DNA of 64,000 bases from Oceanicaulis alexandrii DSM 11625 (GTDB taxonomy: Bacteria > Pseudomonadota > Alphaproteobacteria > Caulobacterales > Maricaulaceae). The translations under genes and the position numbers were made by a program. Each line of letters starts with the position of its first letter. Positions within the stretch are counted from its first letter, which is position 1. The stretch lies in NCBI RefSeq assembly GCF_000420265.1, contig NZ_ATUP01000001.1:1550001-1614000 (forward strand), given 5' to 3'. The notes under the pieces are model-generated. The model did not search any database and was not told where the DNA came from. It saw only the letters and a program-made list of their open reading frames with translations. Below, piece by piece: positions 19,847 through 24,856 of the stretch.

Positions 19847-19946
19847 GTTTGTCGAATGATTGGGCGTCTATCAGAGACGGGCATGGTGCAGCGGGCCACA
19901 ATCCCGTACACTGAAAAGGGTTTTATCACGCCGTCCCGGGACCCTT

Positions 19947-22019
19947 ATGATCCGACTGACCATTAATGGACGTGCCGTTGAACTTGAAGCGGGCGCGACT
20001 GTGCTTGAAGCGGCGCATGCGGCGGGTGTTTCAGTCCCGACGCTGTGTTGGTATCCAGGCTTGCCCGCCCATGCCGTCTGCCGCATGTGTCTAGTTGAAA
20101 TCAACGGCGATCCCAGGCCACAGCCCGCGTGCGCGACTGTGGTGAAAGACGGCGACAGCATCGAAACAGAAACGGACGCCTTGCGCGTATTTCGTCAGAC
20201 CAATGCCGAATGGTTGTTGGCGCGCCATCCTAATGACTGCCTGCATTGCGAGGTGAACGGCGGTTGCCAGTTCCAGCGTCTGGTGCGCGAGCATGAATGG
20301 GAAACGCATTGGCCTGAATCTTCTGGCCGGGCGCCTGACGCGCATGATCCAGACCTGACCGACCACACCTCGCCGAGCATCTGGCGCGATGTGTCCAAAT
20401 GTATTGAGTGCGGTCTGTGCGCGGAGGCGTGCGGCGAACCGGGGCAGCAACTGAATGTGATCGGGTTCGCCGATCGGGGTGAGGACCGTCGCCCGGTCAC
20501 CGTTTTTGATCAGCCTTTAAGCGAGACCGATTGCATTTCGTGCGGTCAGTGCACGCTTGTATGCCCGGTCGGGGCGCTGATCGAGGCGCCGCAATGGCAT
20601 GAGGTGCTCAGTCGGCTTGATTCCCGACATCAGGTGTCTGTGGTTCAGGTGGCGCCCGCGACGCGGATCGCGATCAGCGAAGAGTTTGGCTTCAAGCCGG
20701 GGACAGTCAGCACCGGCCGCCTGATCAACGCTTTGCGGCAATTGGGATTTGACTATGTCTTTGACACCAATTTCGCGGCGGATCTGACGATCATGGAAGA
20801 GGGTTCAGAGCTTCTGGCCAGGGTGAAGGCCGAGACGGACCTGCCATTATTCACGTCGTGCTGTCCGGGCTGGGTGAACTGGGTGGAATTGCACCGGCCA
20901 GACTTGCTGCCGCATCTGAGCACCACGAAATCGCCGCAGCAGATGCATGGCGCCCTGTCCAAGCGCAGCCGGTTCGCGCGGTCTTTAGGCCCCGAATACG
21001 CTGAGGGCGCCAAAGAGCCCTATGTGGTCAGCGTCATGCCCTGCACGGCCAAGAAAGACGAAGCGGCTCGACCCGGTCAGTCTGAAGATGTGGATCATGT
21101 GCTGACCACGCGCGAGCTGGCCCGGATGATCCGCTCGCGCGGCATCGCCTTCGGCGCCCTGGACGAGGACGGCGTGTTCGACAACCCGCTGGGTGAGAGC
21201 ACTGGCGCTGCGCAAATCTTCGGCGCTTCAGGCGGTGTGATGGAGGCGATGGCGCGCACGGCTGCGCATCTTGTGGATCCAGACGGTGCGCCAACACTGG
21301 AATGGCGGGCGCTGCGCGGCGTGAACGCCGGCGTGAAGACCACCCAAGTTCCCGGCGTCGGCGCTGTCGCCGTCTGCAACGGCATCGCCGCCGCGCAGCG
21401 CATGCTGCAAACACAGGACTGGCGGACACACTATGTGGCGATTGAGGTGATGGCGTGCGTCGGCGGCTGCCTGGGCGGCGGCGGCGAGCCAAAATCCATG
21501 GACCCGGACGTACTCAAAAAGCGCGCGGAGGCGGTCTATGCGGTGGATGGAGCGGCGCCGCGTCGCCGGTCTTTCGAAAACCCTGACGTCCAGGCGCTGT
21601 ATGCATCCGAGCTGGGGCGCCCAAATTCAGCTGCAGCCCATGCCCTGCTCCACACCCGGTATGCCGGACGACGCTCAAACCGGGCGCTTTTGATGCAGTT
21701 TCTGGACTGCGTCGACCGGCGGGACGGACGCGCGGCGGCGGCGCTTTTTCATCCCGACGGGGTTTGGTCCACAGCGTCTCACTTCGGTGATGTTCAGGGC
21801 GCTGAGCGTATTGAAGCGCTTGTCAGCACGCAGTTGCCGCCGCGTAAACACGGTCCGGCGTTTGTGCGCCATCAGATGGCCTCAGCGGCGGATGGCGATG
21901 ACCTCACGGTCATTCTGCCGGATGGTCAACGCTGCCGGTTTGAAATCGCGCTTGAGACGGCCCAACGGGAGGGACAAGACACGACGTTGATCAAGTCGCT
22001 GGTGCGGCGCGTCGAATAA
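19947..22019 (+). CDS. hydA: [FeFe]-hydrogenase with C-terminal NTF2/SnoaL-like extension
   Basis: A 690-aa protein with the full Clostridium CpI-type layout. Residues 1-75: plant-type 2Fe-2S domain (Cys34, 45, 48, 61). Residues 94-107: His-ligated cluster (His94, Cys98, Cys101, Cys107). Two 4Fe-4S sets: Cys152/155/158/162 and Cys196/199/202/206. The H-cluster motifs are all intact: TSCCPGW (Cys305, proton-relay; Cys306, ligand), MPCTAKKDE (Cys366) and VMACVGGCLGGGG (Cys504, Cys508). The small-subunit-like ending (LYASELGRP, HALLHTRY) is normal, but about 113 extra residues follow (577-690) that look like an NTF2/SnoaL fold (LDCVDRRDGRAAAALFHPDG). Known family reaction: reversible proton reduction/H2 oxidation. 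Maturation genes hydEFG are absent here. I chose the ATG at 19947 at the start of the ferredoxin domain. Confidence 0.92.
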   Translation: MIRLTINGRAVELEAGATVLEAAHAAGVSVPTLCWYPGLPAHAVCRMCLVEINGDPRPQPACATVVKDGDSIETETDALRVFRQTNAEWLLARHPNDCLHCEVNGGCQFQRLVREHEWETHWPESSGRAPDAHDPDLTDHTSPSIWRDVSKCIECGLCAEACGEPGQQLNVIGFADRGEDRRPVTVFDQPLSETDCISCGQCTLVCPVGALIEAPQWHEVLSRLDSRHQVSVVQVAPATRIAISEEFGFKPGTVSTGRLINALRQLGFDYVFDTNFAADLTIMEEGSELLARVKAETDLPLFTSCCPGWVNWVELHRPDLLPHLSTTKSPQQMHGALSKRSRFARSLGPEYAEGAKEPYVVSVMPCTAKKDEAARPGQSEDVDHVLTTRELARMIRSRGIAFGALDEDGVFDNPLGESTGAAQIFGASGGVMEAMARTAAHLVDPDGAPTLEWRALRGVNAGVKTTQVPGVGAVAVCNGIAAAQRMLQTQDWRTHYVAIEVMACVGGCLGGGGEPKSMDPDVLKKRAEAVYAVDGAAPRRRSFENPDVQALYASELGRPNSAAAHALLHTRYAGRRSNRALLMQFLDCVDRRDGRAAAALFHPDGVWSTASHFGDVQGAERIEALVSTQLPPRKHGPAFVRHQMASAADGDDLTVILPDGQRCRFEIALETAQREGQDTTLIKSLVRRVE

Positions 22020-23749: not shown

Positions 23750-24856
23750 ATGGGTGAGGGGACAGGAATTGCCGGTGAAGCGCCGCTTCACCAGTTCGGT
23801 ATGGGAGATGGCGCGGAGCCGTTTATCTTCCACATGCTGACTCACGCCCTGGTTTTCAGCGCCTATGCGCTGATTGCAGGAACGCTGATCTGGCAAATGC
23901 AGCGGAACAAGAAGCTGCTGCGCCTGAAAATGGTGCGTATCGTTATCGTTCTGGCGTCTCTGGCCGGGCTGGCGCACCTGGCGGGCCTTCTGTCAGTGGG
24001 CATGCCGCATCCGCGTCTTGACGCTGTGGTTCATCTGCTCAGCGCAGCGTTTGGTTTGTGCGGCGCCATTCTGCTTTGGTACTGGCTGCCGCAAATGCTG
24101 GCGCTGGCCCAGGAACGCCGATTGACCCCGGTCAACATGGTCAGCCGATCCGATTATCAGGCTTTGCAAGCCAAGCTCGACAATACCCATGCGGGTCTGC
24201 AGCGTTTCGCGACGGCTGCGTCGCATGATCTCAGAGCGCCCTTGCGCCATATCTCGGTCTTCGCCGGACTGATCGAGCGTGAGGAAGGCGATCAGCTGAG
24301 CCATGCCGGCCGTGACTATCTGGGCCGGTTGAACACCTCAGTGGCGCGGATGCAGGACCTGACTGAGGCTCTTGTAGAATATGTGCGCGCCATCAGCATG
24401 ATGCACGAGCCGACGCGACTGGAACTCCGCGATGTGCTCGCTGGGGTCCGCAAGGATCTGGCGGTTGAAATCGAAAGTCAGAACGCGGTGATCGAGATTG
24501 CGCCCATGCCGGCCGTCTGGGCGGATGACACGCTCGTGGCTCTCGTTCTTCATCATCTGATCGACAATGCGCTGAAGTTCGCCAAGGACCCGCCTGTCCT
24601 CAGGCTTTATGCGCGGGAGGCCAAGGCGGGATGGGTGGAGATCGTCGTCGAGGATGAAGGCCCCGGTATCGACCCGCGCCAGAGCGAAATGGTGTTCGAC
24701 GTTCTGTTTCGCATGTCGACAGGTCCGGTAGAAGGCGTCGGGCTGGGCCTGGCCTTGTGTCGGCAGATTATTGAGGCTGCGGGGGGCCGAATCTGGCACG
24801 ACGTTGAGTATGACGCCGGGGCGCGTTTCGTCTTCACCCTGCCCGCTGCGCCGTGA
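23750..24856 (+). CDS. Membrane sensor histidine kinase
   Basis: Three to four membrane helices lie in the first 120 residues (about 28-48, 62-82 and 95-116) with almost no periplasmic loop, so it likely senses a membrane or internal signal. A DHp domain follows with phospho-accepting His159 (ASHDLRAPLRHI) and then an HATPase domain (LIDNALKFA, VEDEGPGIDPR, GVGLGLALCRQII). The DLRAPLRHI motif is typical of phytochrome-like kinases of the HWE-unrelated HisKA type. The start ATG is uncertain (another in-frame ATG at 23801). No response regulator is adjacent. Confidence 0.85.
   Translation: MGEGTGIAGEAPLHQFGMGDGAEPFIFHMLTHALVFSAYALIAGTLIWQMQRNKKLLRLKMVRIVIVLASLAGLAHLAGLLSVGMPHPRLDAVVHLLSAAFGLCGAILLWYWLPQMLALAQERRLTPVNMVSRSDYQALQAKLDNTHAGLQRFATAASHDLRAPLRHISVFAGLIEREEGDQLSHAGRDYLGRLNTSVARMQDLTEALVEYVRAISMMHEPTRLELRDVLAGVRKDLAVEIESQNAVIEIAPMPAVWADDTLVALVLHHLIDNALKFAKDPPVLRLYAREAKAGWVEIVVEDEGPGIDPRQSEMVFDVLFRMSTGPVEGVGLGLALCRQIIEAAGGRIWHDVEYDAGARFVFTLPAAP

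Follow-up and report, generated by a model that had tools for sequence, protein, structure and literature searches.

The H-cluster of [FeFe]-hydrogenases is generally considered to depend on the maturases HydE, HydF and HydG (HydEFG). The enzymes of protists such as Giardia, S. barkhanus and Entamoeba function without maturases, and some protists have raised the question of a maturase-free [FeFe]-hydrogenase. The hydrogenase-derived Nar1/IOP1 is a maturase-free Fe-S assembly factor reported to have lost the residues holding the diiron unit. One study reports no FeFe-hydrogenase maturases in Giardia species and S. barkhanus (PMC11437800), and a title in the reference list of another describes a recombinant Entamoeba enzyme as active (PMC4967309). 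The latter, by Degli Esposti et al., also describes a maturase-free [FeFe]-hydrogenase in the alphaproteobacterium R. rubrum, whose likeness to the protein described here rests on the reported absence of maturases from its genome. An extra accessory domain is found in the O2-stable hydrogenase CbA5H, where it is of the SLBB type and, according to the abstract of PMC13397568, may not be needed for O2 stability. According to Hansen and Perner (PMC4744846), Greening et al. 2015 assigned proteins from T. chilensis, T. kuenenii, T. pelophila and H. marinus to the A1 [FeFe]-hydrogenases, and biochemical data on them are not available. The same authors report that the three Thiomicrospira species, stated to have such proteins, did not consume H2 under the conditions used, in assays of uptake only and not of evolution.

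The gene analyzed here lies in Oceanicaulis alexandrii DSM 11625, within a stretch of 64,000 nucleotides of contig NZ_ATUP01000001.1 (the window), and encodes a [FeFe]-hydrogenase-like protein that continues into an NTF2/SnoaL-like tail. Its features are given below in window positions; the denominator 63 denotes the full-length tailed members, window included, with the protein of genome G232 left out of the alignment.

19947..22019, plus strand: tailed [FeFe]-hydrogenase-like gene, 690 amino acids from the ATG, in a frame open from a TTG at 19860
19947..20174, plus strand: N-terminal [2Fe-2S] domain Fer2_4 (PF13510) with C34, C45, C48 and C62; ligands in 63/63
20193..20297, plus strand: NuoG-type His/Cys3 [4Fe-4S] region (PF10588, NADH-G_4Fe-4S_3) with H94, C98, C101 and C107; 63/63
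20397..20576, plus strand: two ferredoxin-type [4Fe-4S] sites, C152-C206 (PF12838, PF00037); 63/63
20637..21482, plus strand: H-cluster domain Fe_hyd_lg_C (PF02906, E 2.1e-80)
20853..20873, plus strand: motif L1 TSCCPGW, residues 303-309, C305/C306 equivalent to CpI C299/C300; 63/63
21036..21062, plus strand: motif L2 MPCTAKKDE, residues 364-372, with M364, C366 and K369 equivalent to CpI M353, C355 and K358
21444..21491, plus strand: motif L3 EVMACVGGCLGGGGEP, residues 500-515, with M502, C504 and C508 equivalent to CpI M497, C499 and C503
21507..21665, plus strand: small-subunit-like C-terminal segment Fe_hyd_SSU (PF02256)
21675..22016, plus strand: NTF2/SnoaL-like tail, residues 577-690, identified by a SnoaL_2 match, a tail model and a fold search

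The ATG at 19947 aligns with the start codons of relatives, and the stop codon occupies 22017-22019. The intact accessory-cluster and H-cluster motifs claimed in the original prediction were all recovered in this 690-amino-acid frame, with every ligand and L1, L2 and L3 present. Among the NCBIfam models, the protein passed the group A model TIGR02512 (425.2 bits; cut-off, 405.95) and missed the NADH-dependent group A6 model NF040763 (643.5 bits; cut-off, 765). Its nearest solved structures are T. kivui HydA1 and A. woodii HydA1, followed by CpI, and these matches stop near residue 577, where the tail starts. The bifurcating HydA1 proteins (T. kivui 8a6t and A. woodii 7q4v/7q4w; NF040763) are the best solved-structure match at 466 bits and share the Fe-S ligand pattern as well as the domain order over residues 1-577. 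The tailed protein differs from group A6/HydABC in falling below the cut-off, in having the tail, in being without maturases over cut-off, and in having no HydB/HydC-type partners, none of which was found in the ten open reading frames scanned between 16489 and 27811. With the monomeric group A1 enzyme CpI it shares the M3-type layout, and the pocket and proton-path residues of CpI map onto it one to one. Identity to CpI is 34-35% in the fold alignment, and the tailed protein departs from CpI in V505, L509 and E514 of L3, in insertions (relative to the tailless set), in the tail, and in hosts without HydEFG over cut-off. The nearest solved relative is the HydA1 of T. kivui, which belongs to a bifurcating complex, and not the CpI named in the original prediction. 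In the full-length model, pLDDT was below 50 at residues 35-39, 93-106, 123-188 and 200-212 of the N-terminal Fe-S region. Base composition gave no support to a recent foreign origin of the gene, whose GC (0.61-0.65) is not anomalous against surroundings of 0.57-0.66.

All 63 full-length members possess an H-domain with L1, L2, L3 and the four H-cluster cysteines. V505, L509 and E514 in L3 are signatures of the tailed clade, which is also characterized by C477-N478 and by short insertions at 341, 351-354 and 409 (relative to the tailless set). The [4Fe-4S] ligands are identical in 63/63 members, as are the equivalents of CpI C299, M353, K358, F417, M497, E279, E282, R286 and E361 (S319 in 62), the residues that in classical enzymes hold the diiron unit or carry protons. 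Retention of the diiron-holding residues separates the tailed clade from Nar1/IOP1, and a Nar1-like assembly factor was rejected on this ground. Twelve of the 13 pocket and proton-path positions that are invariant in 21 tailless proteins were kept in at least 62/63 tailed members, compared with 56/74 of the other invariant positions (Fisher p 0.28; 6 of the 74 fall on gaps of the canonical rows and were scored as not kept, giving 56/68 when excluded). This comparison, like the tree below, included 8/15 of the tailless alphaproteobacterial proteins and omitted the G232 protein. As judged from these alignments, the pocket is not relaxed, yet it is not significantly better conserved than other positions. 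The dN/dS ratio across residues 1-576 was 0.04-0.19 in 12 pairs, and the tailed gene is under purifying selection. Six tryptophans (W89, W122, W146, W312, W453 and W492) are fixed or nearly so in the tailed clade (61-63/63) and occur in ≤10% of the 21 tailless relatives; an electron-hopping or packing role is possible for them.

The C-terminal domain of about 114 residues was recognized by Pfam as NTF2/SnoaL-like, as had been predicted, with SnoaL_2 (PF12680; E 2.2e-7; 31.8 bits against a 27-bit cut-off) and SnoaL_4 (PF13577; 27.6 bits against 24) both above cut-off. When the tails of the window protein and 46 relatives were scanned singly, 46/47 matched SnoaL_2 at E ≤0.01. An AlphaFold2 model built from the 47-row tail alignment reached a pLDDT of 87.9 and a pTM of 0.83, and its top Foldseek matches in the PDB were ketosteroid isomerases and other NTF2-like proteins, with modest scores (E of about 3e-5, TM of about 0.5, rmsd mostly 5-7 Å). 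The cone fold anticipated for the tail is therefore borne out at the level of a predicted structure, in that NTF2-like folds lead the matches at this TM. The tail sequence alone had no significant match among PDB sequences (best E, 0.13). W607, G618, R641-H642 and F665 are among the invariant or nearly invariant residues of the tail. Evolution is faster in the tail than elsewhere in the protein: dN/dS is 0.12-0.32 in 10/12 pairs, and the two closest pairs, in which few sites differ, gave 0.51 and 0.88. The accessory domain of CbA5H differs from this NTF2-like tail in both type and placement.

A scan of 84,980 species genomes returned 281 candidates, and among the best 80, which were examined, we found at least 67 related loci (L012-L077 and L079) at 64-74% identity; the other 13 are Thermotogota proteins ending near residue 580. 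The search for relatives with a C-terminal extension was thereby successful, and the notion of a singleton architecture was overturned, some members having already been filed as group A1. The hosts are alpha-, beta- and gammaproteobacteria and a Mariprofundus, with examples in Thioclava, Hyphomonas, Janthinobacterium, Gallionella and Thiomicrorhabdus, and many of them presumably live with oxygen. T. chilensis (L076) is the only one of the four A1-grouped species named above in which we observed the tailed protein. The tail is present in 62/62 full-length relatives among the 67 loci; it is also visible in the front-cut L066, L069 and L075, and L065 and L067 end before it. Because the tailed set was defined by length (>660 amino acids), L065 and L066, both truncated at contig ends, were placed in the short group, and L067, L069 and L075 were excluded. 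The presence of the tail in every full-length relative rules out chance as the origin of the fusion, and likewise the sequencing join that the original prediction had named as a danger. The claim of an undescribed architecture survives in part: no paper naming an [FeFe]-hydrogenase with an NTF2/SnoaL tail was found among those listed from one open-access library, and excerpts of the Morra review do not mention the tailed protein (PMC8924675), but members had been classed before as group A1 [FeFe]-hydrogenases. HydA without maturases is already known; their absence across the whole tailed clade, and its combination with the tail, were not found in print in that library.

A maximum likelihood tree with 87 rows places the 66 from the family on one side of a single branch (SH-aLRT, 100), and the tailed clade sits on a long stem, the method being a quick one and the outgroups flagged for long branches and uneven composition. 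Tailed members are sparse, occurring in 3/398 sampled genomes of the phylum (window's own included), in 2 of a class sample of 385 genomes (15 of which have tailless ones) and in 2 of 81 relatives. The gene is absent from 14/14 other genomes of the genus and from 34/34 further genomes of the family to which the genus belongs. A plasmid collection, from which the window's own genome was possibly excluded, gave 348 matching records, none at ≥60% identity. This patchy presence is consistent with a gene that functions and is transferred on its own; repeated loss could also explain it.

None of the 68 family genomes searched (the window's own, 45 and a further 22) encodes HydG (TIGR03955) over cut-off, and a weak match in G450 (E 3e-4) is far under it. 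HydF and HydE were over cut-off in 0/46 family genomes each (the window's own and 45 of the 66 locus genomes), with weak matches of the GTPase part of HydF in the window's genome and weak sub-cut-off matches to HydE in 11/45. G232 lies outside both of these counts, the L057 genome outside the locus-genome set, and G473 outside all maturase counts. All three maturases were present in four Thermotogota controls. Among the genomes of tailless relatives, HydG exceeded the cut-off in 18/28 (4/4 controls, 8/15 alphaproteobacteria and 6/9 Thermotogota), a ninth alphaproteobacterial genome has HydG in two pieces, and several of the HydG-negative ones (10/28) are fragmented. HypD, of the [NiFe] route, was over cut-off in 8/46 family genomes and missing in 38/46, including the window's own (46 of the 69 family genomes, G473 included). 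With HydEFG and HypD missing, most hosts tested have neither of the two pathways known to supply CO and cyanide ligands to iron. The working hydrogenase assumed at first is therefore doubtful. That maturases were simply missed in incomplete genomes, or that the gene is an inactive relic, is very improbable. The HydG-negative genomes of tailless relatives do show that single HydG misses are common in drafts, but they do not explain 0/68; both the window's genome and G232 have completeness ratings of 100%, dN/dS is far below 1, and the tailed genes of G000, G232 and G473 have no internal stops.

Four small alphaproteobacterial genomes of 1.2-1.6 Mb (G087, G139, G215 and G250, with loci L103, L101, L106 and L102), three of them 98-100% complete, encode a tailless HydA and have no HydG match, possibly representing maturase-free HydA outside the tailed clade. 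L114 (G726), in a genome related at the level of phylum only, encodes a different HydA-like protein with 47% identity over residues 192-516.

The absence of maturases, the spread as a single gene and the negative H2 uptake favor an enzyme without a classical H-cluster, and we hypothesize, at about even chances, that the protein is a maturase-independent Fe-S redox enzyme and not a classical hydrogenase. It would be a solitary enzyme, derived from a group A [FeFe]-hydrogenase, taken to be cytoplasmic and working without HydEFG. The conserved Fe-S ligands imply the path of electron entry, through the four N-terminal Fe-S sites to a [4Fe-4S] cube in the position of the former H-cluster; this cube would be built by the general Fe-S machinery. 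The retained pocket and proton path could then support proton-coupled turnover of a small substrate, by reduction (or oxidation); alternatively, the pocket may hold a simpler iron unit in place of the CO/CN diiron unit. The NTF2-like tail would act as an obligate extra domain, most likely in small-ligand binding or dimer contact; the tuning of oxygen tolerance and the substrate channel put forward in the original prediction are further candidate roles.

Nothing should have kept a cube-only enzyme from losing the equivalents of C299, K358, M353 and M497, so their retention counts against a cube-only center, and retention of the pocket favors an enzyme that needs something very like the classical H-cluster. 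The main rival to a non-classical redox enzyme, which we consider the less probable of the two, is accordingly a genuine [FeFe]-hydrogenase that acquires its H-cluster by a new route independent of HydEFG and is perhaps active under hypoxia only, with a tail that protects or regulates it. In its favor, the protein has kept the catalytic pocket together with the proton path and the electron chain, it passes the TIGR02512 cut-off, and Giardia, S. barkhanus and Entamoeba offer the precedents cited above. This reading has to contend with the three Thiomicrospira species that took up no H2, with the HypD route missing in 38/46 family genomes, and with the lack of any conserved neighbor across the 67 loci that could be a candidate maturase. 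It might imply, as a tentative proposal, that these Proteobacteria, many of them aerobic, make on this protein a functional H-cluster, or a diiron center much like it, without HydEFG and mostly without Hyp, carried by a single transferable and self-sufficient gene with an NTF2 module. Being a conserved bacterial family that has kept the pocket, with HydG over cut-off in 0/68 genomes, the tailed proteins make the question of a maturase-free [FeFe]-hydrogenase testable in cultured bacteria. Should they prove not to be hydrogenases, the hydrogenase fold would have been put to a new use in them, and inventories that score these genes as H2 enzymes would mislead.

Apart from the gene itself, no neighbor cluster is common to more than 8/67 loci. 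Clusters of Hsp20-like and Fnr-like genes each occur near the tailed gene in 4/67 loci and look, from their sequences, like hypoxia or stress genes. They would suit a redox or gas sensor, in which the Fe-S chain and the tail signal redox state and there is no turnover, as would the single gene, its patchy distribution and the small-molecule type of the tail. We regard such a sensor as improbable, given that the Pfam matches include no kinase, PAS or DNA-binding domain, that no partner gene is conserved, and that the retained proton path suggests catalysis. An FNR box was considered as a family feature and dropped: scores of at least 8/10 occur in 18/65 upstream regions, compared with about 16% of randomly chosen positions and about 11% of shuffled sequences; a few lineages have good sites, and the best site in the window scores 6/10.

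The genes flanking the tailed gene in the window include those of a MipA-like protein, a BMT5-like protein and a 2OG-Fe(II) oxygenase. The BMT5-like gene (PF10354; 22274-22972), of a family named for a eukaryotic rRNA methyltransferase, is followed directly by the oxygenase gene (PF13532; 22974-23543), and the two possibly form a two-gene unit. A histidine kinase with an ETR1_N-like (ethylene-receptor-type) N-terminal segment is encoded at 23750-24856. At another locus (L073:13102-15198), a second protein matches the query only in the N-terminal Fe-S part (33% over residues 1-215) and is, from this match, probably a NuoG-like protein encoded near the hydrogenase gene.
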